Positions 26,034 through 57,313 of a stretch of 64,000 nucleotides of DNA are shown here, piece by piece. The DNA lies in assembly GCA_028289325.1 (NCBI GenBank), contig JANQQN010000278.1, positions 1-64,000 of the forward strand. Direction: 5' to 3'. The DNA is from Myxococcota bacterium (GTDB lineage: Bacteria; Myxococcota; Kuafuiibacteriia; Kuafuiibacteriales; Kuafuiibacteriaceae). A model generated the notes under the pieces. The model had not been told where the DNA came from. It made no database searches and saw only the letters and a list, made by a program, of their open reading frames with translations. Within the stretch, counting starts at the first letter, position 1. The number at the start of each line of letters is the position of its first letter. The position numbers were made by a program, and so were the translations under genes.

Positions 26034-27152
26034 CTACTCGCGCTGCGGCGCGTGCTCGAGGGTCGGGCCCTCGTGAACGGCGTCATAGATGCGATTCCGA
26101 AGCCGGTTGGCCTCGGCGCTGGTCAGGCTACGCACCAAGTCGCGAAGCGTGATCCGCAGCAGGACGTTCTTCTGTCCGGCTACGATGCCCAGCCGAGCGC
26201 GCGCGTGGTCGGGCAGCTGATGCCAGGTTGTCTCCGCTTCAATGGTGACGTCTTCGATCTTCGCCGCGTCGGGGCCGAGCGCGGTTCGCGAGAGATCTCC
26301 GAGTTCCTCTCGGGTTCGATCGACCGCGGTGACGATCGACAGATCGCGAACGATCGCGGGTTGGTCCGAGACCGGTACGTAGGGGGCGAGGTCGAGCATC
26401 TGCGCCTGGACCCGCGGCGCCTCCGAACGCAGCAAGCGGATGTCGGGGATCCGCTTGCGCAGCATCAGCAACCGGTCGAGCCCCAGGCCCATGGCCAGAC
26501 CGGCGTGCTCGCGCAAGCCCGCCTCCGCAAGGATCTGTTGGTGTGCGACCCCGCACTCGCCGACCTCCACCCAACCGAGGTGAGGGTCGTGGACGTCGAG
26601 CTGTCGGCCGTGCTCGGTGTACGGATGGTCCCTCTCCTCGGCCCGCGCCGATCGGTCAGGCAACGCCGCGCGCATGGCTTGCTCCACCATTTGGTCGAGC
26701 GAGCGGGCGTCGAGGGGCGAGGGGCTGACGTACCACAGGTCGGCCTGGTGCGGCTCACCAGTGTGGATGCGGTCGATGGAATCTCTTCGATAGACCAGGC
26801 CCGGACACACGACGAGGACGCCTTCCGGCGGCGGACGGAGCCCTCTGAGAACGTCCGGGATCATCGCCGTGGTCTGGGTCCGCAGCACGCGATCCGGCGT
26901 GACGTAGCGGGTGTAGCGCGCGTCTCGGGCCGCTCCGTCCAAGGGATAGTGCAGTCGGTCGTAGTTGTCTTCGAGCGACACCACCGGATGCAGCCGATAC
27001 ACCTGAGCCCGACAGCCCCACGTCGCACGCAGAGCGTCGATGATGTCCGTCAATAGTGTCTGCATCGCGTGAGGGCCCTGGGCAGGGTCGGTCAAATCAC
27101 GAAGAGACAAGGCGCGCTCGAGCGCCTCCGAAGAGAGATTGTTGATCTTCAC
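26034..27152 (-). CDS. PheS-related ligase paralog with C-terminal FDX-ACB domain
   Basis: Class II aaRS motifs GWVEVGECGVAHQQIL and GLAMGLGLDRLLMLRKRIPDIRLLRSE; C-term FDX-ACB-like PAIVRDLSIVTAV. Confidence 0.8.
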   Translation of the reverse strand: MKINNLSSEALERALSLRDLTDPAQGPHAMQTLLTDIIDALRATWGCRAQVYRLHPVVSLEDNYDRLHYPLDGAARDARYTRYVTPDRVLRTQTTAMIPDVLRGLRPPPEGVLVVCPGLVYRRDSIDRIHTGEPHQADLWYVSPSPLDARSLDQMVEQAMRAALPDRSARAEERDHPYTEHGRQLDVHDPHLGWVEVGECGVAHQQILAEAGLREHAGLAMGLGLDRLLMLRKRIPDIRLLRSEAPRVQAQMLDLAPYVPVSDQPAIVRDLSIVTAVDRTREELGDLSRTALGPDAAKIEDVTIEAETTWHQLPDHARARLGIVAGQKNVLLRITLRDLVRSLTSAEANRLRNRIYDAVHEGPTLEHAPQRE

Positions 27153-28587: not shown

Positions 28588-30156
28588 TCAGCCTTCTGCC
28601 CGCTGCCGCAGGTCGATGGTCGCGCCCGCGGTGCGCAGCCGGGCCCGAAGGGCCTGAGCGCTCTTGCGATCGAGGTCGGAACGCACGGCGCAGGGCGTGG
28701 CGTCGAGAAGCTCTTTGGCTTCGCGCACCGCGCCGCCCAGCTCATCTCGCAGGGCTCTCAGCAGTTCGATGGGGCGTGGTCCGGGATTGACGACGACGAC
28801 GTCGAAGGTCGGCGGACGCAGATAGAACCGGCCGTCGAGGTGCGCTTCGAGGGCCGCCCGCCAGTTTGCGCGGGCCTCGAGCCGCTCGAGCACGGCCGCT
28901 AGCGCGACCCGCAGACGAACCAGAAACACGATCTCCGCGGGGCGGGCGAGGGCTTCGAAGTCGCGAACGCCGCGCGCGATCGACTGCACCTGTTCCGCGT
29001 TCGGGCGGCGGATCACCGACGGCGTGGGCTCGAGCATGGGCTCGAAGAGCCAGTGGAGGACCCGATGGACGGGCCGGTCGTCGAGGCGACCGGCCGGGAG
29101 CACGCCGAGGGCGTCCAGCGCGGACCGTACCCGGGGGCGATCGTCTGCGATGACCGCGGCCGCCAGTTCTCGCAGGGGAGCGACGGCGTGGGGCCCAAAG
29201 GTCCGGGCGGAGCCGTGGTCGACGACGGCGATGCGGCCGTCGGTCAAGAACACGGAGTTTCCAGGGTGGGGATCTGCATTGTACGCGCCCATCAGGAACA
29301 GGGAGCCGACGTAAAAGTCGAACAGGGCGAGACCGGCCCGTTGGCGGGCCCGCGAGCTGGGATTTTGGCGGATGAAGCCATCGACGTGCTGTCCTTCGAC
29401 AAAACAGGAGGTCAGCACGGCGGCGGTCGAAAAGTCGGTATCGACGGAGGGGACAACGATGACCGGATGCTCCTCGAAACACCGGGCGAAGGCCCGCTGG
29501 TGCGCGCTCTCTCGTTCGTAGTCGCACTCCTCGAGGATCCGCGCCTGCACGTCTTGCAGCAGCGCGTCGCCTCGGAGGCCCCGACGACGGAAGCCGTTCA
29601 TTGCCTGGGCGCCGAGGGCGGCGGGTCTAAAGTCGAAGCGGATGGCGTCGTCGATGCCCGGGTAGCGGACTTTGACCGCCACCGGCTTGCCGTCGAGCTT
29701 GGCGCGGTGAACCTGCCCGATCGATGCCACGGCGAACGGTCGAGGGTCCATTGAAGCGAGTAAAAGGGATGACCGAGGTCCGAGCTCCCGCTCGACCACG
29801 GCGCGAATTCGGCCGAAGGGGAGCGCCGGGGCGTGGGATTCGAGGGCCGAGAACGCCGGCCTCAGTTCGTCAGGGATGCGCGAGTCCATGTAGCCCGCGA
29901 GCTGCCCGAGCTTCATCGGCACGCCCTTGAGGCGAGCCAGCGCGCTCACCGCGCGTTCGGCGGCCCTTCGGTCGGCCTGGGCGCGCGAACCGCTCCCCGG
30001 CAGAACTCTGGCCAGCCGCCGAAAGCCCCCTCGCGCTGCGATTCCCGATGCGTGCTGGAGGCGGGCGATCGCCGACACCGGAAGGTCTGCGGTCGCTCCG
30101 GACAATCGATCCGCCACCGCCCGCCGAAGCTCGGTCGAAGACTCATTGAGGGTCAT
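28588..30156 (-). CDS. ABC1/UbiB (AarF/ADCK) atypical kinase
   Basis: KLGQ motif, AVASIGQVHRA, VKVRYPG, NADPHPGN, DHG. Confidence 0.9.
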   Translation of the reverse strand: MTLNESSTELRRAVADRLSGATADLPVSAIARLQHASGIAARGGFRRLARVLPGSGSRAQADRRAAERAVSALARLKGVPMKLGQLAGYMDSRIPDELRPAFSALESHAPALPFGRIRAVVERELGPRSSLLLASMDPRPFAVASIGQVHRAKLDGKPVAVKVRYPGIDDAIRFDFRPAALGAQAMNGFRRRGLRGDALLQDVQARILEECDYERESAHQRAFARCFEEHPVIVVPSVDTDFSTAAVLTSCFVEGQHVDGFIRQNPSSRARQRAGLALFDFYVGSLFLMGAYNADPHPGNSVFLTDGRIAVVDHGSARTFGPHAVAPLRELAAAVIADDRPRVRSALDALGVLPAGRLDDRPVHRVLHWLFEPMLEPTPSVIRRPNAEQVQSIARGVRDFEALARPAEIVFLVRLRVALAAVLERLEARANWRAALEAHLDGRFYLRPPTFDVVVVNPGPRPIELLRALRDELGGAVREAKELLDATPCAVRSDLDRKSAQALRARLRTAGATIDLRQRAEG

Positions 30157-31334
30157 AGGAGTCGCAATGTGTGGGCGGCCTGCGCCAAGCGTTCAACCGC
30201 CGTCTTTAGAACCGGCTCGCTGTGAGCCGCGTTGATCTTCAGCTGGATACGCGCCGCGTTCTCCGGCACGACGGGATAGCACATACCCTGAACATAAACG
30301 CCTTGCTCGCTGAGGGCGTTCACCATTCGTTGAAGCGTAACCGCATCGCCGACGACCACCGTCAGGATCGCGTGCTCGCCTCCGTGAACTTCGAATCCCC
30401 GCTCTTGCAGCGCTTGTTTCAGCGCCCGCACATTCGCCAATATCTTGTCCGCCGGCGCTTCACCGCGGGCCACCAGGGTCAGTGCGGCCGACGCGGCGCC
30501 GGCGTCGGCGGGGGTCAGCGCGCCGGAGAAGAGGTAGGGGGTCGACTTTTGGCGGAGCCAGGCCACGATCTCTTTGCGCCCGGCGACGTATCCGCCGCCG
30601 CCGCCGCCCAGCACGTCGACGAAACCGCCGGTCACCGCGTGCACCCGCCCCTCGACGCCGGCGAGATCGAGGCCGCCGGCCTGGCGTTTGCCCAAGACGC
30701 CGACCCCGAGGGCGTCGTGAACCACGACCAACGCGTCATAACGTTCGGCGAGGTCGCAAATGTCGCGTAGGGGCGCAATGTTACCGCTGAGCGGAAAGAC
30801 GCCGTCGGTGACCACCAGCCGAAAGCGCGCCGTGCGCGAGCGCTTGAGGCGATCCTCCAGGCTCTCGAGGTCTTCGCTGCGATAGGCGAGCGTGCGGGCG
30901 CCGCACAGCCGGATACCTTCGGCCACGCTCGGATGAATCGCGGCGTCGACGAGGACGTAGTCTCGGGCGTCGAACAAGGCATCGAACAACCCGACGTTGG
31001 CCAGGTAGCCGCTACCGAACACGATCGCCTGCGGCACCCCGATGAATCCGGCGAGCTGCGCTTCGAGGTCGTGGTGCAGCTCGAGGGTTCCACCGAAGGC
31101 GCGGGGCGCGGGCAGGCCGTGTCCGTGGGCCCGGATAGCCGCGATCGCCGCCTCGGTCACTTCCGCCCGTTGGCCGAGACCGATGTAATCGCCGGCGGTG
31201 AACGCGATCGTGGCCGCTCCCGGTTCGTCATCGGCGTCGAGGTCGGCGGCGGCGGCGACCTCGGCCTTGTACAGGCCGGCCTGCCGCAGCTTCGTGGTTT
31301 CGCTGGAGAGATGGCGCAGCAGCGATCGGGTCAT
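30153..31334 (-). CDS. Alpha-oxoamine synthase (KBL/AONS-like) homolog lacking PLP lysine
   Basis: Homologous to glycine C-acetyltransferase along its length, but ITGTLGKALGGASGGY region reads VTGGFVDVLGGGGGGY. Confidence 0.85.
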   Translation of the reverse strand: MTRSLLRHLSSETTKLRQAGLYKAEVAAAADLDADDEPGAATIAFTAGDYIGLGQRAEVTEAAIAAIRAHGHGLPAPRAFGGTLELHHDLEAQLAGFIGVPQAIVFGSGYLANVGLFDALFDARDYVLVDAAIHPSVAEGIRLCGARTLAYRSEDLESLEDRLKRSRTARFRLVVTDGVFPLSGNIAPLRDICDLAERYDALVVVHDALGVGVLGKRQAGGLDLAGVEGRVHAVTGGFVDVLGGGGGGYVAGRKEIVAWLRQKSTPYLFSGALTPADAGAASAALTLVARGEAPADKILANVRALKQALQERGFEVHGGEHAILTVVVGDAVTLQRMVNALSEQGVYVQGMCYPVVPENAARIQLKINAAHSEPVLKTAVERLAQAAHTLRLL

Positions 31335-31957
31335 GGGGTTTCGGTCTCCTCGCCGCGGCTGGTACCGATGAACCACACCACCGCCGCCACGCAATGGGAC
31401 CACGACAGGCGCCGACGTCGCCCGGCGACGTCGAGGCAGTACGTGTCGATGGCTTGGGCCAACACTTCGGGGGGGGCCCCGACGGCGAGTGAGGCGTCGA
31501 GGTAGAGCCCGGTCACCAGTCTCGCGTAGCGGCGCCGGAGTTCGGCCAGCAGCTCCGTTCGGTAGTTTCGGTGCTCGTTCATGATCCGGTAGCGGACGGA
31601 CCGCGGCAAAAAGCGGGGCTCGCTGAATCGATTGGCGACGATCACGTCGGACACGAGCCGGCACCGCCGTCGGGCTGGCCCCCGACGCTGGCGGCAGTTT
31701 CGGCGAGCGGCTTCGAGCAGGCAGCCGATCTTCAGGCTCCGAAGCGGGGCTTGGCACTGGTTGCGCTCCACCGCGTACAGATAGTTGTAGGTGTCGGCTC
31801 GCTCTCGAGCATCGATGCTCTTTAAAGCCTCGAGCGTGGCTTGGATGGTTTGGCGACGCTGGTGGTCGGGCGTGGCCGGCGAACCGAGCGCCGCGGGTTC
31901 GGTCCCCGCGGCCAGGCCGAGAAGGCCCACAAGCCCCAGCGTCGCCGAGGTACTCAC
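31331..31957 (-). CDS. Secreted/anchored hypothetical protein
   Basis: GTG start at 31957, VSTSATLGLVGLLGLAAGTEPA...; ATGA overlaps with both neighbours. Confidence 0.65.
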   Translation of the reverse strand: MSTSATLGLVGLLGLAAGTEPAALGSPATPDHQRRQTIQATLEALKSIDARERADTYNYLYAVERNQCQAPLRSLKIGCLLEAARRNCRQRRGPARRRCRLVSDVIVANRFSEPRFLPRSVRYRIMNEHRNYRTELLAELRRRYARLVTGLYLDASLAVGAPPEVLAQAIDTYCLDVAGRRRRLSWSHCVAAVVWFIGTSRGEETETP

Positions 31958-33561
31958 AGGCGGCTCCGCGCGTGGCGATAGTGTCGCCGGAAGGCCTCGA
32001 CGAAGTTCGTCAAGTGCACGTGGTACGGATATACGGCCAGCAAATCCGGGCGATCGTCGATCCACGGGTGGCCGAGGAAGATGTCCGTCTCCCGCAGCAG
32101 CTCGAGCTTGGTGAGCAGGCTCGTGGGCCGGGCGAATCGCTGCGCGGCGGCGCGACCGGCGTCGGCTTCCACCAACGACTGCTTGCTCTGAAGCTTGCCG
32201 TACCTGAACCCGGGCGCGAGGAGTCGGGCGAGGTGATCGAACACCTGGATCTGACCGCGGACGTTGGCCGAGAAAGGCGTGACGGTCACCGATCGAATCC
32301 CGAGCGCATGGCCGGCTACCGTCGCCGTGCGGCTTCTGAGCGCCGACGGTGTGGGGCCGAGCATCAGGCACTGAAAGCTGATGACCCGGGATACGTCCGG
32401 CGGCGCGGGCGCGCTGGGTGTCCGCCCGTCATCCTTGGCCAAACCGGCGGACAGCTTCGCGCGGCGGTGGCGCCCCAGCCCCGCCCTCACCTCGCCGAGG
32501 ACCCTGCGGGTCGCGAGGTAGCCGTCCGGATCGTTCAGCATTCGTTCGCAGGAGTCAGCGGCGGAGTTCCAATGGATCGTGTGCTCTCGGCATGACGCGA
32601 CCACGGTCGGATACGCGGGGTTGAACAACAGCTGACCCATCGCGTGCTCGACGATGAGGCTGGAGGCGAGGGGATCGTCTTCGATATCGGTGAGCAGCGG
32701 GGGCATTCGCGCCGTGCGCGCGTCGCAGGCCGCGGCGTCCAGCGCTTCCACGACCCGGGGCACGATCCCCGACCGAGGGGCGGGGAGGTTCGTGAACAGA
32801 TGGTGCGACGCGCGAGGCGTGCGGGCGACCGGGTCGCGCCGGGCAAGCAGGAGAGCGCCCAGGTGATCGCGACGTTCTTCGACCTTGGCCAGCGAAGACC
32901 GGACCTCGTCGATCACGTCCGGCACCAAGGCCGGCCGACGAGACTGCAGCAGCCGCCACGCGTAGTGGAGGTACGGCTCATCGAGCTGCCGGCGATCGCA
33001 TACGGCGGTGATCTCGGTGCGTTCCTGCGGCGCGCAGGGGCCGAGATCGCTCGCGTATCCTAGCTGGTAGGCTCGCCGAAGCAGCCCGCAGCCCGCGAGG
33101 CGGGGGTCTTCGGCTTTCGGGGGAGGGGCTTCGAGGCAGTACTGCAGGCCCGAAGGCTCGAACGCTTTCGACACCGACGTCAGCTGAGCCACGCCGCGGT
33201 TGTCGATGGTCAGCAAACCAACCTGCAAGAAGATCGCGATGTAGGCGGCCATGAGCCCCGCGCTTCGGGTCCGACGGACCCGAGCCGATCGACGCCGAGG
33301 CAGATGGCCGAAGGGATCCGTGCGCTCCACCCGAGGACTGCCGCCGGGGCCAATTCGGAGGTGGTGCTCGCTGGCTTGCCCCAGGCGACCGAGGTGAAAG
33401 ACCGCGCTCGCGGCCAGCACGGAGAAGATGCCGATCGTGAAGCCCGCCCAGATGTCGAGCTGAGCGAGATAGTCGCCCCGCAGTCGCCCCAGCATCGTGG
33501 TGCCCACCGCGCACGCCGCGAGCAGGGTCAACGCGGTTATCGTCTTCGCCCCGATCCGCAA
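31954..33561 (-). CDS. Hypothetical membrane protein
   Basis: MRIGAKTITALTLLAACAVG..., N-terminal TM helices, long frame in tight gene packing. Confidence 0.7.
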   Translation of the reverse strand: MRIGAKTITALTLLAACAVGTTMLGRLRGDYLAQLDIWAGFTIGIFSVLAASAVFHLGRLGQASEHHLRIGPGGSPRVERTDPFGHLPRRRSARVRRTRSAGLMAAYIAIFLQVGLLTIDNRGVAQLTSVSKAFEPSGLQYCLEAPPPKAEDPRLAGCGLLRRAYQLGYASDLGPCAPQERTEITAVCDRRQLDEPYLHYAWRLLQSRRPALVPDVIDEVRSSLAKVEERRDHLGALLLARRDPVARTPRASHHLFTNLPAPRSGIVPRVVEALDAAACDARTARMPPLLTDIEDDPLASSLIVEHAMGQLLFNPAYPTVVASCREHTIHWNSAADSCERMLNDPDGYLATRRVLGEVRAGLGRHRRAKLSAGLAKDDGRTPSAPAPPDVSRVISFQCLMLGPTPSALRSRTATVAGHALGIRSVTVTPFSANVRGQIQVFDHLARLLAPGFRYGKLQSKQSLVEADAGRAAAQRFARPTSLLTKLELLRETDIFLGHPWIDDRPDLLAVYPYHVHLTNFVEAFRRHYRHARSRL

Positions 33562-33567
33562 TTCAGC

Positions 33568-34173
33568 TTACTCCTCGTCGACCGCCTTCACGCTGACGAT
33601 CTTGTCATCGATGGTGATCCGCCGGTTGCGCGACTTGGCTTCCCGAAGCGCGGCGGCCTGGGCGCGGGTGATGTCTCCCTGGAATATCGGCGTCTCCTGA
33701 GCTGGAGAGTTGTCGGCGTGGGTGCACAACACGACGTGGTCGGTGATCTCGGGACCGTAGGATTCGATCTCCCTGAACACCGCGAACGCCCGCCGATAGC
33801 CCAGGGCGAGGTTACGGATCTTGTCTCCGTCGCTGTCGGTGTGGCCGTGGATGACCAGAAGGCGTCGATTGAGCCCGCCGAGGTCGAAGTTGAGCACTTC
33901 GCCCGAGTCGTCCTCGAATAGCTTACGAAAGACGTCGTGTCCCTCGGGGGTGAGATTGGACTTGCCCGACGGGAACAGAACGTCACCGGGCAGGCTAACG
34001 GTTCGCGTCGTCTCCTCACCCGTGGCGCGGGCCGCGCTCTCGTCGCGGCCCTTGTTGATCGACCACAGGATGACGAAGAACACCATCACGATGGTGATCA
34101 GGTCCATGTAGATGATCTGCCAGACCTCGGACTTCTTCCGCGGGATCCGCGGCAAAACGTATACCCGCCTCAC
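33568..34173 (-). CDS. MotB/OmpA-like protein
   Basis: WQIIYMDLITIVMVFFVILWS (MotB-like TM with Asp) and LLVIHGHTDSDGDKIRNLALGYRRA (OmpA-like). Confidence 0.82.
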   Translation of the reverse strand: MRRVYVLPRIPRKKSEVWQIIYMDLITIVMVFFVILWSINKGRDESAARATGEETTRTVSLPGDVLFPSGKSNLTPEGHDVFRKLFEDDSGEVLNFDLGGLNRRLLVIHGHTDSDGDKIRNLALGYRRAFAVFREIESYGPEITDHVVLCTHADNSPAQETPIFQGDITRAQAAALREAKSRNRRITIDDKIVSVKAVDEE

Positions 34174-35027
34174 GAGCCGACCCGCACTTTCGCTTTCGTC
34201 TCGACCAACACTTCGAGCGCTCGACAGAAGGTTTCGAAGTCGTAATCCAGCGCCTTGAGACGCTGGTCGAACCGAGAGGCGATGATCTTGTATACCGACG
34301 AGAACACCGCACCGTACAGCGTCGTCTTGAGCGCGAGCGCGAGTTGGGGAGAGACGAACTCGATGGTGACGTCGGCGCTGAGGCTGTCGAACATGCCGAT
34401 GAGCCCGATGATGGTGCCGATGAGCCCGAACAAAGGCATCGCGCCGGCGACGAATTCAAGGTGGGCGCTCGAGTAGTCGTACAGCTCGTGGCACTCGGCG
34501 TAATACGCGTGGGCGATGTACTGCAGGTATTCGGAGGGCTCAGGCTGTCGATCGAGGACGGCGGCGATGTCTCGCGACAGCGGGTTGTCGGGAAGCTTGA
34601 CCGTGACGCCGGGTTTGACCGGGCCCAAGGTCACCGTTCCCGTGGCGTCGGGACGGATCTGTAGGAACCGCTGGAGGGGGACCAGGGTCTCCTGCAGGTA
34701 CGCGGCCTGTTGAATGACGTGTTTGCTCGAGAAGAACACGGTCACCGACGACAGGAACAGCTTCACCAGCTCCGCTCCCGTCACGTAGACCAGGAGCGCG
34801 AACGACACCATCAACATCGAGATGAAGTAGCTCTCGGTGACGAAGAAGATGGCGGCCGCCACGAACAGGAGGCCGCATCCCAGCAGCCCGAACACGCCGG
34901 CGCCCGCCGCCGCTTTGTTGATGGCCAGGCGGGACCGATTGACGGTGTCGAAGAAGAGCCGGTCGTCGTCTTCGACGCCGGACCCGGCCGACGGGGGCCT
35001 AGTCGTGGGATTGTTGTTTTCGGTCAT
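34170..35027 (-). CDS. MotA/TolQ/ExbB-type proton channel protein
   Basis: FVAGAMPLFGLIGTIIGLIGMFDSLSADV...SPQLALALKTTLYGAVFS. Confidence 0.82.
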   Translation of the reverse strand: MTENNNPTTRPPSAGSGVEDDDRLFFDTVNRSRLAINKAAAGAGVFGLLGCGLLFVAAAIFFVTESYFISMLMVSFALLVYVTGAELVKLFLSSVTVFFSSKHVIQQAAYLQETLVPLQRFLQIRPDATGTVTLGPVKPGVTVKLPDNPLSRDIAAVLDRQPEPSEYLQYIAHAYYAECHELYDYSSAHLEFVAGAMPLFGLIGTIIGLIGMFDSLSADVTIEFVSPQLALALKTTLYGAVFSSVYKIIASRFDQRLKALDYDFETFCRALEVLVETKAKVRVGS

Positions 35028-37419
35028 GGGACGAAGATCCTTCGGCCGGCGGCACGTCATCTCGCCGGTCCGGACGATGGCCGCGCGCCTGCTGCGCCAA
35101 ACGCTCGACGTAGATCGGGTGATACTGGACGGCCCGGTGTACCGAGAGCCCGAGGGCGCTCAGCACGACGAGGGTCACCGCGGCCGTCCGGAGCCATCGG
35201 GCCCGGCGTTCGTAGCGGTCCACCAGCGGTTCGAGGAAGAAGCGAGATAGCCACACGACTCGTTTGAAGAACGAGGCGCGGTCACGTGGGGGCGGGACAT
35301 CATCGTCGAGTCGGGCGCGGACATCTTTGAGAATCGCGGACGACGTCGACTCCAGCTCGTCGATTCCGGCCCGGACGGTCAAGGGATCTTCGCGTCCCGT
35401 CGCCCGATACCACAGATACTGAAGATGATGATGGCGACCGTAGTGCAGGGCCGCGAAGGCGTCGGCGATGATCACCGGTGCGCGGCCCACGGCTGCGCTG
35501 GCCCCGGCTCGGACCGCCCGGTACACCGCGTGGCTCCAGCGCCCGGTTCGCGCTGCGGCCATGTCCACCGCGAGCGTAAACGTTTGCAGCTGGCTATCGC
35601 GGCGGACGATCTGACCCACGGCGTACGCAAGGCCGCCGAAGAGAAAGTCCTTGTCGGTGGGATCGGTATCGTCGTGGTCGTCGTCGGGGTCCGGTGCAAA
35701 CCACTGGTAGTGCTCCGATAACAGCGCTCGCACGACCTCCAGGTCTTCGATGGTATCCGCGATCAACGGCACCCTTTCGCCCGGCTCTGGACGGACATAG
35801 CCGAGCAGGGTCGCGGCCTGGCCGAGCTGCTTTCGGTGGTGGCCGGTGGCCGAGGTCAGCGGTTCGCGCCGAAACAAGGGTATCCGGTTCGCGCTCACGG
35901 CTCGTCGGGCGTTGCGAATCCGGGTTCGGCCAAAGGACGATGGACCCAACACCCCCTCGGACCAGTCCGCCGGTGCGACGTCTTCGTCGACCCGTCGGTC
36001 ATTCAAAGCGCCGATGGCCAGGCCAAGCACGCGCTCATCGATCACCACTCGGGCGGGCGTCGTTCCGCCGCCGTAGCAGTGCAGGCCTTCCCGGCGGCCG
36101 GGAAGAAAGATGATCGCATCGAGACGCTCGGGTTCGAGCGCCCAGCCCGTCCGGCGGAGGTATCCCGCGAAGTATCTCGAGATCTCCGGGTGCCACGGGT
36201 TGTCGGGGCTCGCGGAGCCGACGACCAACGCCCGGTCGAGGTACACGGCGAGCGCCCGCGTCCAGCTCGAGAGCCAAAGACGCGCGCCGAGACCCACCGC
36301 GGGGACCATCACGATGAATCGGGTCGACGCCGACCAGGTCCTGCCGTCGGTGGCGACCGAGATGGCGAGGGCAAAGGGTAGGTAATACGCGGCCAAGGTC
36401 ACGATCCGGGTCGCACATACGAACAACCACGCCCGGATCAGTCGAAATACGTCGCGGTGGGCCACACGGTCGAGTCCGGGCAGCGCCGGGAACAGCAGGC
36501 CGACGTTGCTGATCAAGAACGCGCCCCACGCGGCGCCGCCCAGCAGTCCGACCGCCCAATGCCGGTCTTCGAGGGCCCCGAAGCTCAACGGCACGACGGG
36601 CGGAATCAGCTCCGCTTCGCGGGCGGCAACGAGGGCGAGGGCGCCGATGAGCGCCGACGTGGAGAGCCACGTCGACGGCCACCGTGTCGCGTGTAGCGGC
36701 TGTCCTGTGGCGGCCAGTCTTCGCGCCGCGATCAGGGGGATGAAGAAGAAGACGGCCGCCGCCGCCAACAGCGCGGCCAGGTCGCGGACCTTTGCTTCTG
36801 CCCCCGTGGGCTGAACGGTCGTGACTATTGCCGCGGGATCGGGGGCCGGGATCGCGGTCGACGGCTCGGCCCGTCCGATCCGGGTCCGATACGGCTTCTG
36901 ATCCAGCAGCCCGCCGGGCGTGAGCACGGGAGCGAAGGCCTTGAGCAGGCGCTGGCGGAGCCCGAGCAGTCCGCCCGCGCCCTGCAGGGCGATCGCGCCT
37001 TCGGCGACCTGGGACGGGGTCCACGTCTCGTACAGCGCGTACCGCAGCGCGGTGGCGTCGGCGTTGGCAACGAAGACAACATCGACGCCCAAGCGCCCAT
37101 AGCGGCGAACCCGGCACGCGGGATCGGGACCGCAGTCATCGGACGCCGAATCGTCTCGGTGGTAGATGCGGAGGCGCACGTAGGTCGCTAGCTCCCGGGC
37201 CAGGTGTTCGTTGAGGGCCGCGGCGAGCCAGGCTGGCGCACCGTTTGCGGCGCGAACGTCGACGACCACCGTGCCCGGCGAACGCGCGGGTGGTTGCGGC
37301 TTCGCGGGCGCGGCCCACGCCACCGCGACGCCCAAGACGGCGGCGGCCGCCGCACGAGGGGCGACCCACCTAGGGGCGGAGTGGATGGCGCGCAGACCCG
37401 CTTCGACGGTGTGCGGCAC
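34999..37419 (-). CDS. Large multi-TM protein of unknown function
   Basis: 806-aa frame with signal/TM N-term, periplasmic-like domain and several TM helices; overlaps downstream gene by 29 bp. Confidence 0.7.
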   Translation of the reverse strand: MPHTVEAGLRAIHSAPRWVAPRAAAAAVLGVAVAWAAPAKPQPPARSPGTVVVDVRAANGAPAWLAAALNEHLARELATYVRLRIYHRDDSASDDCGPDPACRVRRYGRLGVDVVFVANADATALRYALYETWTPSQVAEGAIALQGAGGLLGLRQRLLKAFAPVLTPGGLLDQKPYRTRIGRAEPSTAIPAPDPAAIVTTVQPTGAEAKVRDLAALLAAAAVFFFIPLIAARRLAATGQPLHATRWPSTWLSTSALIGALALVAAREAELIPPVVPLSFGALEDRHWAVGLLGGAAWGAFLISNVGLLFPALPGLDRVAHRDVFRLIRAWLFVCATRIVTLAAYYLPFALAISVATDGRTWSASTRFIVMVPAVGLGARLWLSSWTRALAVYLDRALVVGSASPDNPWHPEISRYFAGYLRRTGWALEPERLDAIIFLPGRREGLHCYGGGTTPARVVIDERVLGLAIGALNDRRVDEDVAPADWSEGVLGPSSFGRTRIRNARRAVSANRIPLFRREPLTSATGHHRKQLGQAATLLGYVRPEPGERVPLIADTIEDLEVVRALLSEHYQWFAPDPDDDHDDTDPTDKDFLFGGLAYAVGQIVRRDSQLQTFTLAVDMAAARTGRWSHAVYRAVRAGASAAVGRAPVIIADAFAALHYGRHHHLQYLWYRATGREDPLTVRAGIDELESTSSAILKDVRARLDDDVPPPRDRASFFKRVVWLSRFFLEPLVDRYERRARWLRTAAVTLVVLSALGLSVHRAVQYHPIYVERLAQQARGHRPDRRDDVPPAEGSSSHDRKQQSHD

Positions 37420-37489
37420 GGCACACCGAGTGGAGCCAATCCATCACGCGGAGTCAAAAGGAGAGACGGTGGATCGCTCTCGGGCGGGG

Positions 37490-39703
37490 TCAGTTCGCCT
37501 CGCCGGGATTCGTTTCGATCTTCTCCCAGTAGATGACGTAGACATCCTGAGCGACCGGTGCTGTCGACGTGGTGACGAAGCCGATCTCCTGCTTGCCGGA
37601 CCTTCGAACCATCTTGTCGAGCCACACCAGCGGGCGTCGGTCGCGATCCCTCGCCGTTGGCCGGCCGTTCTCGATGAGGACGCCATCCAGAGCCCCCTTG
37701 GCCTTGGGAATGGCCACGAACGTGTACATGCCGGGCCGGCTGATCTCGACGGTGGTCGGCAACACGTAGTGTTGGTTCACGAAGTTGAACTTGTCGACGT
37801 CGGTTCGTTTCGACAGGTAGACCGGCCTTCGCGTCGAGTTCCACTCGAAGTCTCGACTCTGTTCGAGCAGCTTCACGAACACCGACGCTGCGTCGGCGGG
37901 CCACCGTTCGACCGCGAGGGCGCTGGGTACGCTCTTCTTATCGCCGTAGGCCGCACTCTGCACGGTCACGTCGACGCTGAGGGTGCTGGTGCCGGTCGCG
38001 AAGACCATGACGTAGGGCAGCCCGGTCGTGAACGGGAGGGGCATGGCCACCGGGGTCATCGGTTCACCTTCGGCCGGGTTGGCGCGCATCGATACGCCGA
38101 GCAGGGGCGCTTGTAGCCGGATGAGGTACAGTCCGGAGCGAGGCAGCAACACGGAGAAGTTCCGGGTCGCGACCCCGAACGGGTCTTCACCGAGGTTGAT
38201 GACGCCGGTGAGCACGTCGCTGTCGTCGGGCGCGGGATGGCCGGTCATCGACGCGAGGGCGGTCCGTATCGCCGTCGCGGATACCTCGGGCGCGGATTCG
38301 AACTGAGCGAGTTGAGCTCTCCACTCTTCTTCGTACTGCACCGCCCGCTTGCCCTTCGGGTCTTCGAGCATCGCGTGAAGAAAGTCGAGGCGCTGCCCGA
38401 AGTTGATATCGGCGGCGTTCACCGTTCGTCGCCCGCCGGCGAAGATGAAGTTGCCGGAGCTAATGAGGCCGATGACCTTGCCCGAGCTGGCGATGATCGG
38501 ACTCCCGCTCGCGCCGCCGGTGATCGGTAGGCCGTGATGGATCAGTCGGTTGCCCGACGGTTGGTTGATCATGAAGAAGTTGGTGAGCCGAATGATCTCG
38601 TCCTGTTGAACGACCGGCGACGGTTGGCGCAGAGCGCCCGGGAGGAGCATCTCGCTCGGATAACCCGCGAACGCGACCCGAATGCCCGGGCGCAGGGTCT
38701 CGAGCTCGTCCATCGTGGCCAGCGGCAGCGGGGCAGCCAAGCGCTCCGGTCGCTCGACCTTCATCACCGCCACGTCGGCGGGGGTCGCTGTGCGCATGAG
38801 ATCGAGCCGGCCGCTCTGCCGCTGCACGGGCAGATATTCGTTCCAGAGCTTGATGAACTGCTTGAAGCCGGGGTGAAGATCGACCGACGTCACTCGATGA
38901 CTGGCGTGAGGCGGGACCGACGACCGGACCCACAGCGACTCGCCCGTCTTCAGCCGATTGAAGGCATCGGCGACGTGGGCGTTGGTGGCCAGCATGCCGC
39001 GCTCGGTGACCCACGCCGTTCCTTGGGCCTGCTCGCCCCCCAGTCGGTCGGCCTTGACGACGAGGTACACCGAGCGGCTCACTTGATCGAGAACGTCGGC
39101 GGGGATGGTATCGACCTGCTCGTTCAGGAAGCTGAGCGTCTTGGAGAGGCTGTCGACGTTTTGGCTCACGCCCTCCAGGCCGCGGCGGGACTCGTCCACG
39201 GACGTCTTGACGTCCTGGAGGCGCGACTGCGTGAACAGCACCATCCCCGCCACCGCGGCCACCACGACCAGCGCCGCGGTGAGCAGGCGCTGATTGCGAC
39301 GGCTCAGATCCGCGGACTGCAGATTCTGGCGGCCGATCTTCTTCGGCGCCGGCCGAGTGTCGATCACCTCCAGCCGCAGACGAAGGCGCTTGCCGAGCCG
39401 GATGTCGTGGGCGCCGTTCAATTCCATGTCTTCGATCGGCCGGCGCCCGTCGACTTCGACGTACAGATCCGTGTTCAGGTCGACCTGGTACCGGCCCAGA
39501 CTTCGTCTGAACCCGATATGTTCGGCGCCGATGCCGTCGGCGAGAGACGACTCGGGCAACACGATCTGGCAGGCGACCGGATCTCGACCCACCACGATGT
39601 ATCGGACGCTGCTGTCGAAGAAGTACTCTTTGTCGCCGGTCGCCGTTTCTCCATCGACGACGGTCACCTTGACCCCACTGACCCCACTGACCCCGTTTGC
39701 CAC
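37490..39703 (-). CDS. FHA-like domain / TM / trypsin-like serine protease
   Basis: GTG start with AAAGGAG SD; FHA-like RYIVVGRDPVACQIVLPESSLADGIGAEHIGFRRSLGRYQV; TM; GTAWVTERGMLATNAHVAD (His), ADVAVMKVE (Asp), GGASGSPI (Ser). Confidence 0.83.
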   Translation of the reverse strand: MANGVSGVSGVKVTVVDGETATGDKEYFFDSSVRYIVVGRDPVACQIVLPESSLADGIGAEHIGFRRSLGRYQVDLNTDLYVEVDGRRPIEDMELNGAHDIRLGKRLRLRLEVIDTRPAPKKIGRQNLQSADLSRRNQRLLTAALVVVAAVAGMVLFTQSRLQDVKTSVDESRRGLEGVSQNVDSLSKTLSFLNEQVDTIPADVLDQVSRSVYLVVKADRLGGEQAQGTAWVTERGMLATNAHVADAFNRLKTGESLWVRSSVPPHASHRVTSVDLHPGFKQFIKLWNEYLPVQRQSGRLDLMRTATPADVAVMKVERPERLAAPLPLATMDELETLRPGIRVAFAGYPSEMLLPGALRQPSPVVQQDEIIRLTNFFMINQPSGNRLIHHGLPITGGASGSPIIASSGKVIGLISSGNFIFAGGRRTVNAADINFGQRLDFLHAMLEDPKGKRAVQYEEEWRAQLAQFESAPEVSATAIRTALASMTGHPAPDDSDVLTGVINLGEDPFGVATRNFSVLLPRSGLYLIRLQAPLLGVSMRANPAEGEPMTPVAMPLPFTTGLPYVMVFATGTSTLSVDVTVQSAAYGDKKSVPSALAVERWPADAASVFVKLLEQSRDFEWNSTRRPVYLSKRTDVDKFNFVNQHYVLPTTVEISRPGMYTFVAIPKAKGALDGVLIENGRPTARDRDRRPLVWLDKMVRRSGKQEIGFVTTSTAPVAQDVYVIYWEKIETNPGEAN

Positions 39704-41756: not shown

Positions 41757-42443
41757 ATGGTCGGTCGACTGCTTTGGGTCCTGGTTCTGGTGGCGCTATC
41801 GACACCGAGGTCCGTCTTCGGGCAGTCGAGCGTCCATGACTTTCAGCTGAGCGGCAGCGCCTCGGTCATCAGCGAAGACTGCATTCGTTTGACCCCCGAC
41901 CTCCCCTACGTCAGCGGCTCGGCGTGGTTCAAGCGCGCCATCGACCTGACCCGGCCCTTCGAGATGCGAATGAGCTTGGTGCTGGGGAGCAAAAACGAGC
42001 AGGGGGCCGACGGGATCGTCTTTGTCTTCCATCCCCGCATTCAGACCGGCTTTCGCGGAGAAGGCATGGGCTTCGCGGGCCTGAGGCCGTCGTTGGGTAT
42101 CGAGTTCGATACCTATCGAAACGTTCACCTCAATGACCCTCAAGCCGACCACCTGGCGGTGATGCTGGACGGCCAGCGTTTCCATGGCGAGTCGGGGCTG
42201 GGGTTGGTGGAGCTCGACAACCTCGAAGATGGCGCGCGGCACCCGCTGCGCATCACGTGGGATCCCCAGCGCGCCGAGCTCAGCATCTATCTCGATGAGA
42301 AGCTTCGGGCCGCCTATCGCGGCGACGTCATCAAGCGCGTCTTCGGCGGGCAGACTCAGGTCTACTGGGGGATGACGGCGGGAACCGGCCGACTCAGCAA
42401 CGACCAAGACGTGTGTCTCGACCGAACGTTTCTGAGCGTGTGA
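41757..42443 (+). CDS. L-type (legume-like) lectin domain protein, secreted
   Basis: SVHDFQLSGSASVISEDCIRLTPDLPYVSGSAWF...GADGIVFVFHP...LGIEFDTYRN. Confidence 0.83.
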   Translation: MVGRLLWVLVLVALSTPRSVFGQSSVHDFQLSGSASVISEDCIRLTPDLPYVSGSAWFKRAIDLTRPFEMRMSLVLGSKNEQGADGIVFVFHPRIQTGFRGEGMGFAGLRPSLGIEFDTYRNVHLNDPQADHLAVMLDGQRFHGESGLGLVELDNLEDGARHPLRITWDPQRAELSIYLDEKLRAAYRGDVIKRVFGGQTQVYWGMTAGTGRLSNDQDVCLDRTFLSV

Positions 42444-45454: not shown

Positions 45455-46259
45455 TCTCCGCTCGGAGCTCGAACGATTGCGCACTCGCCGCGACGACCGC
45501 TGTGCGTCCGACCTGGAGCTCGACCGCCTGCTGGCGAGCGAGCTCGACGCGACGGCCGCGGCGAACCTGCGGCAACGGGTCTCGGCGTGCGCGCACTGCC
45601 GCGACCGGCTCTCGGCGCTCGAGGCCGACCGTGAGGCCTTCCTCGCCGGCTCGATGCTGCCGTTTGCGGATTCTCCCGCACCGAGCGAACGGCGCCTGCC
45701 GGGGGCCGAATTCCGCCCGGATCCGAGCGAGGGTTGGCTTCGCGTTCTGCGGCCTCGCCGAGGCTGGTTCGGCGCCCCGGCCGCGGGGGCGCTGGCGGCA
45801 GCGGCGCTCGCAGCGGTGTTCGTCGGACTCGGCGTGCCGCCGGACCAGACCCGGATGAAGGGCGCGGACGGCTTCGGATACACGGTGGTGGGTGCGGATC
45901 TCCGAATCCGGGGTGACGAGACCACGGCCCGCGCGCGTCCCGGCGATGAGCTGCAGTGGCGGTTTCGGGTCACGGCCCCCCGCTACGTGGCCGTGCTCTC
46001 GAGAGACGACACCGGTGCGGTCTCCGTCTATTTCCCGGCCGGGCTTCGCGCGGCGCGGATCGCGGCCGGCGCCGAGCAGGTGCTTCCGATGGCGCTGCGT
46101 CTGAACGACAGTAGTGTCGAAGAGGAGATCTTCGGGGTGATCTGCACCGCTGCGGTGGAGATTACGGACCTCGAAGCGGCCATCGTCGCCGCCGAGCCCA
46201 CCTTCCCTGACGGCTGCCACGCCCATCGACGCCGGCTTTCGGTGCAGAGGGTGCCGTGA
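45447..46259 (+). CDS. Putative anti-sigma factor, single TM
   Basis: Overlaps sigma gene; zinc-finger-like CAHCRDRL; TM GALAAAALAAVFVGLGV. Confidence 0.75.
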   Translation: MASLRSELERLRTRRDDRCASDLELDRLLASELDATAAANLRQRVSACAHCRDRLSALEADREAFLAGSMLPFADSPAPSERRLPGAEFRPDPSEGWLRVLRPRRGWFGAPAAGALAAAALAAVFVGLGVPPDQTRMKGADGFGYTVVGADLRIRGDETTARARPGDELQWRFRVTAPRYVAVLSRDDTGAVSVYFPAGLRAARIAAGAEQVLPMALRLNDSSVEEEIFGVICTAAVEITDLEAAIVAAEPTFPDGCHAHRRRLSVQRVP

Positions 46260-47842
46260 GGCGCAGGGCGTTCGTGAGCTCGCTGGCGCTCGGGTGGCTC
46301 GTCGCGCTCGGCGCGGCCCACGCCGAAGAGCGATTCGCGGTGGTCATCGGCAACAACATCGGGGAGGCGGAAGAGGTCCCGCTCAAGTACGCCGAGGCCG
46401 ACGCGGCGCGAGTGGCGGCGGTGCTTCGGGACATTGGGTCGGTACGGGCCGAAAATCTGGTCCTGCTGCAAGGGCAAAACGAAGAGGCCGTTCGTCGGGC
46501 GCTGATCGCCATCAACGAGCGAATTCGGGCCGGTCGCCCCGCCAACACCACCCTGATCGTCTACTACTCCGGACACGCCGACGCGGGGGCGCTTCATCTC
46601 GGCGACACGACATTGAGCATCGACGAGCTGCGAGGCCTCGTTCAGGGATCCGCGGCCACGTTTCGGCTGTCGATCGTCGATGCCTGCCGCTCAGGCGGCC
46701 TCACCCGGGTGAAGGGCGGCACGATCATCCCTCGCAGCACGGTCATCGTTCGCGACGATGCCGTCGGCGAAGGTACGGTGTTCCTGACCGCGACGTCGGC
46801 CGACGAAAACGCCCAGGAGTCGGATCGAATCCGAGGCTCGTTCTTCACCCATTATCTGGTGACCGGTCTGCTGGGTGCGGCCGACGACGACCGGGACGGC
46901 GCGGTGGATCTCAACGAGGTGTACCGCTTCGCGTACGACAACACGCTGCGGGCATCGAGCCGGACGCTCGGGGGACAGCAGCATCCGACCTTTCATCAGG
47001 AGCTTCGAGGCAAGGGGGAGATCGTCTTGACCCGCTGGTCGGCGCCGGTGGACCGCGCGTTCTTCACCTTTCCCGCCGGACAGAGCTGGTTGCTGATCCG
47101 AGGTTCGGAGCAGGGCCCCATCGTCGCGGAGGTCAACGCGTACAGCGCGAACCGCACCATCGGGGTGAGGCCGGGTCGCTATTACCTGATGGGCCGGGCG
47201 TCGAACGCGCTGCTCGAAGGCGCCACCGACGCCGGGCGGGGGGCGCGGATCGCCGTCGAACGGCTGGACCTGACGAAGACGGACTACGCCCGTCTGGTGA
47301 GAAAGGGAGGCGCGTTCGCCCCTTCCGTCGCCTACGGGGTTGCGGCCGGGTACCAGCTGCGTTCGGGCCTCTATGCGGACAGCGGGCCGTGCCAGGGCGC
47401 GTACGCCGAGTACGCCGCGGACTGGGCGGTGGCCACCGCCGTTGGCCGCGTCGGTTATTGCGCGGGGCGGTTCTCGTTTCGAGGGAACGACGGCACCGCC
47501 GACGAGCTCGACCTCGGGATCCGGGGGCGACGGGTGTTCGACCTCGGTCGGTTCAGCATCCGACTGGGCATCGGTGCGGCATTGGCGATCCTTCGTCAGC
47601 GGATCACGCTGACCGACCGCGCCGGCGACCAGTCCCTATCGATCCGGGAGCAGAGAACCACGTTCGGCGCCCACGGCGATCTCAGCGTCGGCGCGTCGTA
47701 CGCGCTGCCGGCCGGGTTCTTCGTCGGCGCCGAAGGTCACGCCATGCTGTACCTGTTCGAGGTTCAGCAGACAGACTTGGATCCCGGGCTGGAACTTCGT
47801 TTTGCTTCGCGACTGTCGGCGATGATCGGCAAGCGATTCTAG
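46256..47842 (+). CDS. Caspase-like (C14) protease with C-terminal beta-barrel-like domain
   Basis: RFAVVIGNNIGEAEEVPLKYAEADAARV; IVYYSGHAD (His); LSIVDACRSGG (Cys); C-term beta-rich region ending RLSAMIGKRF. Confidence 0.83.
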   Translation: MRRRAFVSSLALGWLVALGAAHAEERFAVVIGNNIGEAEEVPLKYAEADAARVAAVLRDIGSVRAENLVLLQGQNEEAVRRALIAINERIRAGRPANTTLIVYYSGHADAGALHLGDTTLSIDELRGLVQGSAATFRLSIVDACRSGGLTRVKGGTIIPRSTVIVRDDAVGEGTVFLTATSADENAQESDRIRGSFFTHYLVTGLLGAADDDRDGAVDLNEVYRFAYDNTLRASSRTLGGQQHPTFHQELRGKGEIVLTRWSAPVDRAFFTFPAGQSWLLIRGSEQGPIVAEVNAYSANRTIGVRPGRYYLMGRASNALLEGATDAGRGARIAVERLDLTKTDYARLVRKGGAFAPSVAYGVAAGYQLRSGLYADSGPCQGAYAEYAADWAVATAVGRVGYCAGRFSFRGNDGTADELDLGIRGRRVFDLGRFSIRLGIGAALAILRQRITLTDRAGDQSLSIREQRTTFGAHGDLSVGASYALPAGFFVGAEGHAMLYLFEVQQTDLDPGLELRFASRLSAMIGKRF

Positions 47843-47863: not shown

Positions 47864-49765
47864 TCAGCTACTATTGTCTTGCGCGTCCTGCCCGTTTGGC
47901 TTCGTGTAGAAGCGACCGAGACAGAGCGCCAACTCCCTGCTGTCGATGGGTTTTGCAATCACCTCCTCAATGCCGACCGATCGAAACCGCTCCTTGTCAG
48001 ACTCAAGTGCACTTGCGGTCAACGCAACGATTGGAGTCGACGCCATCCGAGGGATTTGCCGAATTCGACGGGTCGCCTCGACGCCATCGAGCTTGGGCAT
48101 CTGGATATCCATCAGCACCAGGTCGAATTTGTTACGCCGCACGCTCTCGACCGCCGCTGCGCCATCCTCGACGACGGTTACGGCAACGTCCATTCGCTCC
48201 AGGAGCTTCACGATCACCCGCTGGTTTACGATATTGTCTTCCGCTACGAGCACCCTCATCCCGTCGAACTCCGGTGGCGCGCAGGTGGCCGCTGTCTGCT
48301 TTGCAGGACCGTGAGAATCGCCAACCCTCGACAGAGGAAGTAGTACCTTGAAGATCGAGCCTACGCCTACGCAGCTCTCCACGGAGAGGCGACCTTCCAT
48401 GAGCTCGACGAGCCGCTTCGTGATGGCCAATCCCAGACCCGCACCTCCGTGATTTCGGCGATCGCACCCCGCGACCTGAGTAAACTCTTCAAAAACGAGG
48501 TCGAGTTGGTCAGAGGCAATGCCGGGGCCCGTGTCTTCGACCTCGAGGGTGATCTCCTCCGCTCCGGCACGGGAGGACCCAGCCAAGATCCGGACGGTGA
48601 TGCATCCAGAATCCGTGAATTTTATGGCATTACCCAGAAGGTTTCGGAGGATCTGTGCATACCGGTTCGCGTCAAGATTGAATAGAACCCCTTCCGGTAC
48701 TGATGTCTTCAGTGCCAGCTCGAGACCCTTTTCGGTGGCGAGCGGTCGCATGAGCGAAAGTGTTTCCCGAGTCTCCGTCGCTATACAACTCGGGCGTGGG
48801 TACAGCTCCAGCTTCCTCTCGTCGATCTTCGAAAGATCGAGAAGGTCATCAACGACCACCCGGAGCGACTGCGCCGAGTGACGCACGATCTCGACGAGGT
48901 GTCTTGCTGCCGGCGGCAGATCATGATCCTCGGCGAGCTCTGCACACAGGCCAATGATCCCGTTCATCGGGGTTCGAAGTTCATGGCTGACGTTGGCCAT
49001 ACGCTGACATCGAGCTCGCATCGCCCGTCGTGCGGAATCTCGATCTTCCACGAGCGCGCCGTGGGAGGTCGATAAGGCCGCCATCTTCTCCTGGAGCTGA
49101 TGCTCCGCGTCCTTGAGATGGGTAATATCCGTATAGACGCCGATCAGCCCCGTCACCTCGCCCGCGCGATCCAATACCGGCGCCTTACTTGTACTCAGCC
49201 ACGCCGTCTGTCCGTCTCGCTGCTGAGGTTCTACGACGTTGGTGAGGGAAGTCTTGGAGGTCATGACCTCTCTGTCGCACGTGTGAAAGAACTCGATCTG
49301 GTCCTCCAAGAAGCCCAGATCGTAATCCGTTCCACCCCTGACTTCGTCTACCGACATGTTGAAGTCACTTGCGAAGACGCCATTGACGTCTTGAAAGACG
49401 TGATCGCGGTTCTTCCAAAAGACCCGGTGAGGCCGCGGAATAGCGCGGAACGCCGATCGAAGCGATTCCAACTGAATTCGCGTAGCTCTGAGCTCTTCTT
49501 GGATGCGCTCGTTAGCGCTACGCAGCTGCTCAACGAGCTGCTGTTCTCCAACCGCTGGTGTTTGTGTCCGAGGGCTGCGCTTATCAACTGAGTCGACGAA
49601 GGCGCATACTTGATCTCCAAGCAAGCGGCAAAAGCCCGCGCCAAAGCTCAGCTCGGCGCGAGGTACTCGGCTCGACGACGGCCCACGTTCGGCGTCGGAG
49701 CCAGACGGCGTCCCGTCCGCCGAATGCTCCTCCCAGTCTGCACCGCAGCGGTGGCACTTCCCCAT
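47864..49765 (-). CDS. Hybrid sensor histidine kinase (PAS-HisKA-HATPase-REC)
   Basis: RMANVSHELRTPMNGIIGL; ATPase DTGPGIASDQLDLVFEEF; receiver DLVLMDIQMPKLDG. Confidence 0.92.
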   Translation of the reverse strand: MGKCHRCGADWEEHSADGTPSGSDAERGPSSSRVPRAELSFGAGFCRLLGDQVCAFVDSVDKRSPRTQTPAVGEQQLVEQLRSANERIQEELRATRIQLESLRSAFRAIPRPHRVFWKNRDHVFQDVNGVFASDFNMSVDEVRGGTDYDLGFLEDQIEFFHTCDREVMTSKTSLTNVVEPQQRDGQTAWLSTSKAPVLDRAGEVTGLIGVYTDITHLKDAEHQLQEKMAALSTSHGALVEDRDSARRAMRARCQRMANVSHELRTPMNGIIGLCAELAEDHDLPPAARHLVEIVRHSAQSLRVVVDDLLDLSKIDERKLELYPRPSCIATETRETLSLMRPLATEKGLELALKTSVPEGVLFNLDANRYAQILRNLLGNAIKFTDSGCITVRILAGSSRAGAEEITLEVEDTGPGIASDQLDLVFEEFTQVAGCDRRNHGGAGLGLAITKRLVELMEGRLSVESCVGVGSIFKVLLPLSRVGDSHGPAKQTAATCAPPEFDGMRVLVAEDNIVNQRVIVKLLERMDVAVTVVEDGAAAVESVRRNKFDLVLMDIQMPKLDGVEATRRIRQIPRMASTPIVALTASALESDKERFRSVGIEEVIAKPIDSRELALCLGRFYTKPNGQDAQDNSS

Positions 49766-50062
49766 GACTTGAGCATCGATAGATCTGATAAGTGTTGGAG
49801 CTTAAAGACGTGAAAATACATGTATTCACTCCGCTGGGTATCTCGGTACGTGTTCCAAAGCGAATTGAAGCACCGGAACACCGGGCGTTCGAGTCCCCCG
49901 CTGGCAAAGCGTGACCGGTCGAGGCGAAGATGACGGTAGGTATCAGAAGACCAACTACCAAAGTCGCGGACTTGCAGGGCCTCTTCACCGGTTGCTGAGC
50001 TCCTACGGCGGCTTCCGAACTCGGTCGTGAAGAGGGTCATGCGATAGACGCGGCCGTGGCCC

Positions 50063-51325: not shown

Positions 51326-51399
51326 ACAATCTCTTGTCGGAAGCGCGAAAGCGCACTTTACATCCAATTGACGGACGACCGGATCGCAGCGCTGCGTGA

Positions 51400-51762
51400 C
51401 TATAGATATGCCTCGATGCGGTTGACCAGCTCGGCGGGATCGCCGGTCTTTTGAATGAACCCGTCGGCACCGGTCTTCGTCGCGAGGAGCTTCAGCGCAG
51501 ATGCATCCTGATCCGAATGCAGGAGAAGCTTCGCGCTCTTGAGCCCGCTCAGCTTCTTGAGCGACTTGATCAGACCCTCGCCATTCAGGCCCGGCATGTT
51601 CACATCGACCAACACGACCTCCGGTTCGCTATCCTCGATCCGCAGTGATACGCCCACTTCGTTGCCGAAAGTGGTCACGTCCCAACCCACTCCTGCCAAG
51701 GCCATCTGCACGGTCATCAGTACGATCTCGCTGTCGTCTACTACTGCAACACGTCTTGCCAT
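51400..51762 (-). CDS. Single-domain response regulator (CheY-like)
   Basis: MARRVAVVDDSEIVLMTVQ...PEVVLVDVNMPGLNGEGL. Confidence 0.9.
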   Translation of the reverse strand: MARRVAVVDDSEIVLMTVQMALAGVGWDVTTFGNEVGVSLRIEDSEPEVVLVDVNMPGLNGEGLIKSLKKLSGLKSAKLLLHSDQDASALKLLATKTGADGFIQKTGDPAELVNRIEAYL

Positions 51763-51763
51763 T

Positions 51764-52765: not shown

Positions 52766-52767
52766 GT

Positions 52768-55044: not shown

Positions 55045-55421
55045 GTTTCTCCTGCCGTTCGTTGCAATACTCGGCTGGGTTCCAGCTCTAGCCCGATGCC
55101 CTGCTCGTCCTCCACCCAGCCGAGACAGCCCCAGGAGCTCCACCGAGAGAGCAGGGTCGGCAGCGGCTGCGTGGGGCCGGTGGCCGTAATCTTCAGCGAC
55201 CTCACGTCGAGAGTGAGTATCCGACCGTCGGGGGCGGCGATCTCCAGTGCGCGCCGCCCTTCGACGATCGGCAACGGCATGCCGAGCAGTTCTTCGAGGG
55301 AGGTGTGCGCATCGACACTCGATGCGTCGTGGATACGACGGACGCTGAGGCCGTCGACGAAGATACGATGCGGTCCCGCCGGGCACAGAATCATGGGGCG
55401 GTCACGGGTGAGGTCAGCCAC
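55041..55421 (-). CDS. Small CheW-like adaptor, divergent
   Basis: VADLTRDRPMILCPAGPHRIFVDGLSVRRIHDAS...; overlaps cheA and upstream cheW. Confidence 0.6.
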   Translation of the reverse strand: MADLTRDRPMILCPAGPHRIFVDGLSVRRIHDASSVDAHTSLEELLGMPLPIVEGRRALEIAAPDGRILTLDVRSLKITATGPTQPLPTLLSRWSSWGCLGWVEDEQGIGLELEPSRVLQRTAGET

Positions 55422-57305: not shown

Positions 57306-57313
57306 TCTGAACC

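Follow-up and report, generated by a model that had tools for sequence, protein, structure and literature searches.

A recurrent six-gene unit with a MotA/MotB-type motor pair and a degenerate KBL-like alpha-oxoamine synthase

What could a pair of MotA/MotB-type motor subunits be doing in one tightly packed gene cluster with a degraded metabolic enzyme and with membrane and periplasmic proteins that match no described family? This question is raised by positions 28588-39703 of a 64,000-nucleotide stretch (the window, analysed as a whole) of contig JANQQN010000278.1, from assembly GCA_028289325.1 of a Myxococcota bacterium. An earlier note, made from the sequence alone, had described an eight-gene cluster there, and the eight open reading frames (ORFs) are indeed open at these coordinates, all of them on the minus strand; they are lettered here A (protease) to H (kinase). 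The junctions are also as tight as had been described, with 70 bp between A and B, a 29-bp overlap between B and C (counted with the 285-aa start of C), a 4-bp overlap between C and D, 6 bp between D and E, and 4-bp overlaps at each of the E-F, F-G, and G-H junctions. The same note had proposed a single energised membrane machine made of all eight products. Our results support six of the genes, B to G, as one system, but leave the protease outside it and the kinase as an accessory at most. This unit is real and conserved, and as a system it is probably new; we consider it moderately probable, from the sequences, that B-C-D-E-F-G form one inner-membrane machine driven by a MotAB-type motor and containing an alpha-oxoamine synthase (AOS) pseudoenzyme.

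Recurrence of the six-gene arrangement

Conserved synteny, the check that the note had put forward, was examined across genomes, and six genes out of the eight, namely B, MotA, MotB, E, F, and the AOS, had homologues adjacent to one another in related genomes. The arrangement B-MotA-MotB-E-F-AOS appears in the same order and on the same strand at nine loci (the window, L017, L018, L024, L036, L025, L028, L085, and L086), corresponding to eight genomes from three phylum-level groups, and in these complete loci the genes mostly overlap or stand a few bp apart. Protein identity among them ranges from 24 to 67%, and from 24 to 40% across phylum-level groups. Its recurrence in independent genomes puts this gene order far above chance.

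Full-length homologues of B were found in only two other genomes of the 195 phylum genomes searched, at L017 and L018, both with the six-gene order. An alignment of E, scanned against 84,980 species genomes, brought in L024 (Myxococcales) as well as L025 and L028 (Bdellovibrionaceae UBA1609), with the six genes at each. The genome of L024 (RYN_366) carries, in addition, a second and diverged complete copy, L036, with the AOS lysine intact. When the phylum of L028 was searched with a MotB profile, 8 of 369 genomes matched, including that of L025; this search yielded the new loci L085 and L086, with all six genes, three further genomes (L087, L088, and L089) in which MotA-MotB-E-F are present and the AOS is absent, and a locus cut by the contig end (L090). 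In the phylum of L024, the single match among 379 genomes was the L024 genome itself. The unit is rare and patchy in distribution, and ancient-looking. For the first seven loci, the trees of five genes of the unit (B, MotA, MotB, E, and F) separated BJ13 plus UBA1609 from the rest, the tree of the sixth, the AOS, was unresolved, and no well-supported conflict between gene trees was observed. The flanks of the inspected copies showed no further common theme.

The form found at L089 (6992-11102) is a very distant MotA-MotB-E-F set in which a small upstream membrane protein takes the place of B and no AOS is adjacent; it is possibly an older version of the system.

The motor pair and its partner proteins

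The description of C and D as a MotA/MotB-like pair was confirmed by family matches. Gene C (34170..35027, with its ATG at 35027 and an alternative start at 35060) encodes a MotA/TolQ/ExbB-like protein of 285 aa that matches PF01618 (MotA_ExbB) over the cut-off (7.1e-16), and its nearest solved relatives are MotA (PDB, 1.8e-10), TolQ (3.4e-8), and PomA. Among the first six loci, its protein identity is 51-67%. MotA proteins of the unit are 263-285 aa long, with only a short tail after the fourth transmembrane helix (TM4), and P198 and T205 of TM3 are invariant; the TM3 threonine is found in PomA/MotP as well as in TolQ. Gene D (33568..34173, 201 aa) matches MotB_plug over the cut-off (8.6e-7) and OmpA just below its cut-off (1.3e-5). 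The protein has a single TM helix with an invariant Asp24, followed by an OmpA/Pal-type peptidoglycan-binding domain in which the GHTD and NRR motifs are also invariant. About 20 residues separate the TM helix from the OmpA-like region; as a short linker without the flagellar plug is characteristic of generic ion transporters (GIT; PMC12505986), this MotB seems to be of the generic, non-flagellar kind. Judged by sequence, both proteins belong to the superfamily of 5:2 motors and retain its ion-channel and peptidoglycan-anchor signatures. A PHROGs scan gave weak matches of unknown function, to MotB only.

Gene B (34999..37419) is an ORF of 806 aa without sequence matches in Pfam, NCBIfam, or PDB. 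Predictions for its product give a signal peptide, a periplasmic domain (~47-180), around five TM helices, a cytoplasmic domain (~400-735), a last TM helix (746-764), and a short tail. In a partial AlphaFold model, with the N-domain mostly at a confidence (pLDDT) of 65-87, the periplasmic domain resembles those of the LpoB/PelC/TolB-N type, its top Foldseek matches being LpoB, PelC, TolB, and GNA1162, consistent though weak (E 0.003-0.02). No relatives of B were found in IMG/VR viral contigs. Two sets of candidate homologues of B were rejected: those of L019 and L020 (E ~1e-5), whose proteins are cyanophycin synthetase-like, and that of L021, a CsgG/PEGA-like protein that has only the type of periplasmic domain in common with B.

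Gene E (31954..33561, 535 aa) encodes three N-terminal TM helices followed by a large domain, predicted to be periplasmic, with eight invariant cysteines; its AlphaFold model was poor (pLDDT 49) and unfit for a fold search. The product of gene F (31331..31957, 208 aa) is predicted to be a secreted periplasmic protein and has six invariant cysteines. The even numbers of invariant cysteines in E and F suggest disulfides in the periplasm. None of B, E, and F gave a significant family match in Pfam or NCBIfam, and these three of the six unit proteins had no match in PADLOC or among PDB sequences either.

The alpha-oxoamine synthase and the proposed model

Gene G (30153..31334) encodes a degenerate KBL-like AOS of 393 aa, with a Pfam match to AOS/aminotransferase I-II at 8e-43. 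Its closest PDB relative is KBL (1fc4, 1e-140 with the family profile), with similarity over the full length, and the AOS proteins of the clusters form one clade (support 89/94), whose sister group is the housekeeping KBL found in the same genomes. Comparison of catalytic residues was made at four positions, each with its own role in these enzymes: the lysine that binds pyridoxal phosphate (PLP), the stacking His, the N1-Asp, and the second His. In the window copy, the PLP-lysine site reads TGGFVDVLGG against TGTLGKALGG, with Lys replaced by Asp, the N1-Asp is replaced by His and the second His by Leu, leaving the stacking His as the only one of the four positions that is kept; the second Arg of the ARIR motif is also lost. 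The importance of the compared residues has been described (PMC6148460). All nine cluster AOS proteins have lost at least one of the four residues, against none of ten AOS proteins from outside the clusters.

The "dead lysine" of the earlier note holds for the window copy and for three others, SJ496, BJ13, and G543, where the residue is His, but not for the family as a whole, as five of the nine copies keep the lysine. Its loss corresponds to four independent changes on the tree. The second His is lost in seven of the nine copies and the N1-Asp in several, Lys-bearing ones included. Relative to B-F, the AOS has evolved faster in the lineages without the lysine (seven loci; the most extreme of 35 label choices), and overall it is more conserved than B, E, and F. 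A gene that is kept while its active site decays shows the pattern of an enzyme with a non-catalytic role, like SPT1/LCB1, and a decayed metabolic enzyme has apparently been reused here as a structural part.

Alternatively, the AOS could still be an enzyme, a substrate-shifted acyltransferase similar to KBL or to serine palmitoyltransferase (SPT), with a lipid or signal product that the motor moves or senses at the envelope. Products of AOS enzymes include sphingoid, sulfonolipid, and CAI-1-type compounds, and the PLP lysine kept in most copies and an evolution slower than that of B, E, and F would agree with activity. However, the repeated replacement of the lysine by Asp or His, the decay of the second His and the N1-Asp even beside an intact lysine, the missing Arg of the ARIR motif in the window, and a unit devoid of any other lipid gene make this explanation unlikely in our view.

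The pseudoenzyme reading is also consistent with the loci where the AOS is missing. In the sister lineages L087 and L088, B has no cytoplasmic domain and keeps the periplasmic domain and the C-terminal TM helix, and no cluster-type AOS was found in their genomes, which hold a distant AOS gene or no AOS. Both are nested (100/100) with G543, which has the AOS and the B cytoplasmic domain. The very distant L089 has neither an adjacent AOS nor a recognisable long B, and two changes on the tree explain the joint absence. The simplest reading of an AOS gene and a B domain absent together is that the AOS acts by contact with that domain, which suggests that the pseudoenzyme docks on the cytoplasmic domain of B.

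The model that we propose takes as its starting points the conserved operon-like order, the motor signatures, the degeneration of the AOS, and its joint absence with the B cytoplasmic domain. From these we infer the formation of a complex, an ion-driven rotation, the docking of G on B, and an output at the envelope. C and D would form an ion-driven motor of the MotA5:MotB2 type, as judged from the stoichiometry of the family, which the OmpA-like domain of MotB would hold to the cell wall. Ion flow past Asp24 of MotB would turn the MotA ring, as in other members of the family, and the motion would be coupled to the membrane-spanning B, with its LpoB/TolB-N-like periplasmic domain, and to the disulfide-rich E and F. 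These three proteins would act on peptidoglycan or on the outer membrane, as Tol-Pal or Agl motors do. Together with the cytoplasmic domain of B, G would make up a cytoplasmic module that is optional, G itself being a structural or regulatory pseudoenzyme derived from a KBL-like ancestor, with no need for PLP-lysine chemistry. In its broader form, which we put forward only tentatively, the unit would represent a new class of wall-anchored ion-driven motor in which a KBL/AOS fold was recruited as a cytoplasmic partner, rotor-side or regulatory, and, in some lineages, lost along with the domain on which it docks, the output machine being the new periplasmic disulfide-rich proteins.

Several points weigh against the proposed model. 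Some of the five Lys-bearing AOS copies may still be catalytic, and the joint absence amounts to a single clear loss, to which a very distant lineage (G523) is added. In addition, the model of B is of low confidence beyond the N-domain and the TM bundle, none of its Foldseek matches reaches E 0.001, and all the carriers with a stated origin are metagenome assemblies.

Ion-driven 5:2 motors drive flagella, gliding, secretion, nutrient uptake, envelope constriction, and phage defence, and each of these outputs is recognised through partner genes. As this unit has a fixed partner set of its own, half of it without database matches, it probably does an undescribed job. The repeated decay of a pseudoenzyme within the operon, and its vanishing together with one domain of B, point to a protein-protein contact that can be tested directly, and a pseudoenzyme on a motor would show how a metabolic fold gets recruited to such a machine.

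Neighbouring genes, other explanations, and comparison with known systems

Gene A (37490..39703) had been taken for an FHA/trypsin protease. The trypsin-like part stands (Trypsin_2, PF13365, 4.7e-13), but the FHA domain is unconfirmed: an FHA-like GRDP...EH pattern is seen by eye, with no Pfam match at E<=1 and nothing in the PDB search. Apart from its own genome, none of the 195 phylum genomes showed a homologue at E<=1e-10, and the protease adjoins no other copy of the unit; it is probably only co-oriented with the conserved genes and no part of their unit. Gene H (28588..30156) encodes, as had been proposed, an ABC1/UbiB-like kinase (PF03109, 6.4e-47) with intact KxGQ, VAVKV, ECDY, and DPHPGN motifs, to which a ribosomal L7/L12 C-terminal domain is fused (PF00542, 5.9e-9). 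The kinase adjoins the unit at two loci, the window and L024, where the homologue is divergent, 39% identical, and has the same fusion; no other ABC1 match spanning the L7/L12 domain was seen among the genomes tested. It is likely an accessory at most. At L024 (3572-5056 and 5059-6417), a VWA protein beside the cluster has an L7/L12 C-terminal domain as well as the ABC1 kinase, and this odd linkage, in the window and at L024, is possibly functional.

Elsewhere in the window, a single 372-aa chain (26034-27152, minus strand) combines a PheRS-type class II core with a weak match to a ferredoxin-fold anticodon-binding domain, an arrangement linked with mitochondrial PheRS and unusual as a free-standing bacterial gene. 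On the plus strand, there are a protein with an L-type (legume-like) lectin domain (41757-42443; PF18483, 8.4e-45) and, ~6.5 kb from the protease gene, a caspase-domain protein (46256-47842; PF00656, 1.2e-13) with a weak PADLOC caspase match. A signal-transduction run on the minus strand (47864-59797), including a hybrid histidine kinase and a CheA-like protein (Hpt, CheW, receiver), is a possible chemosensory cluster. The Rfam scan of the window detected no feature at threshold.

Zorya-type anti-phage defence, to which the earlier note had pointed, would make the motor a sensor of infection at the envelope, with the cytoplasmic module as its effector. Zorya (ZorAB; PMC11890865) likewise has a MotA/MotB-type pair, a peptidoglycan-binding B subunit, and cytoplasmic partners; the MotB of the unit matches the PADLOC ZorB1 models (1.2e-14), and the distribution of the unit across phyla is patchy. 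However, that match lies mainly over the common OmpA domain, MotA reaches only E 0.06 against ZorA and has a short tail in place of the long one, and no PADLOC match to ZorC/D, ZorE, or ZorF/G was found in the cluster proteins or the flanking genes tested, periplasmic partners standing in their place. The unit also encodes no toxic effector such as a nuclease or helicase, the flanking genes that were tested show no defence system, and we regard a defence role of this kind as quite improbable. An alternative stator or a motor for flagellar or gliding motility, with accessory proteins, is about equally improbable: the MotA profile is near MotA/PomA/TolQ and a CheA-like gene lies ~15 kb off in the window, but the short MotB linker is that of GITs (PMC12505986), and flagellar or Agl/Glt genes were neither seen in the unit nor common to the flanks that were read. 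Finally, the chance assembly of unrelated housekeeping genes into an operon, for which the lack of conservation of the protease and the kinase as neighbours could speak, is hardly credible, being already contradicted by an order kept at 24-40% identity across phylum-level groups, by the presence of the whole block twice in one genome, and by the dedicated AOS clade.

On sequence grounds, the unit is not Zorya because the tail and the effectors are missing, not Tol-Pal because TolA, the TolB propeller, and a separate Pal are missing (no cluster protein matched them in Pfam or NCBIfam), and not a flagellar stator because MotB has neither its plug nor its linker. No description of a system combining a MotA/TolQ-type motor with such partners was found in the open-access literature searched. 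The GIT branch (TolQR, ExbBD, and AglRQS; PMC12505986, PMC9389320) is similar in its A subunit, with conserved TM3-TM4, and in its B subunit, with one TM helix, a membrane Asp, and a short linker without the flagellar plug. Here, in contrast, the motor B subunit bears a full OmpA-type domain. To our knowledge, no counterparts of protein B, E, F, or the AOS are known in the TolQR, ExbBD, and AglRQS systems. Tol-Pal is alike in its MotA/TolQ-type motor, in its OmpA/Pal-type peptidoglycan binding, and in having a TolB-N-like periplasmic domain encoded in the operon, whereas in the unit the Pal-type domain is fused to the motor B subunit and E, F, and the AOS are extra. KBL is similar to G along its full length, but the cluster AOS proteins are a separate clade with degraded catalytic residues, fixed in a motor operon. 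The SPT1/LCB1 subunit of eukaryotic serine palmitoyltransferase (PMC6148460) is likewise a member of the AOS family that has no PLP lysine and is kept as a partner; in contrast to it, G has no catalytic AOS partner in its operon, and the partner proposed here is the membrane protein B.

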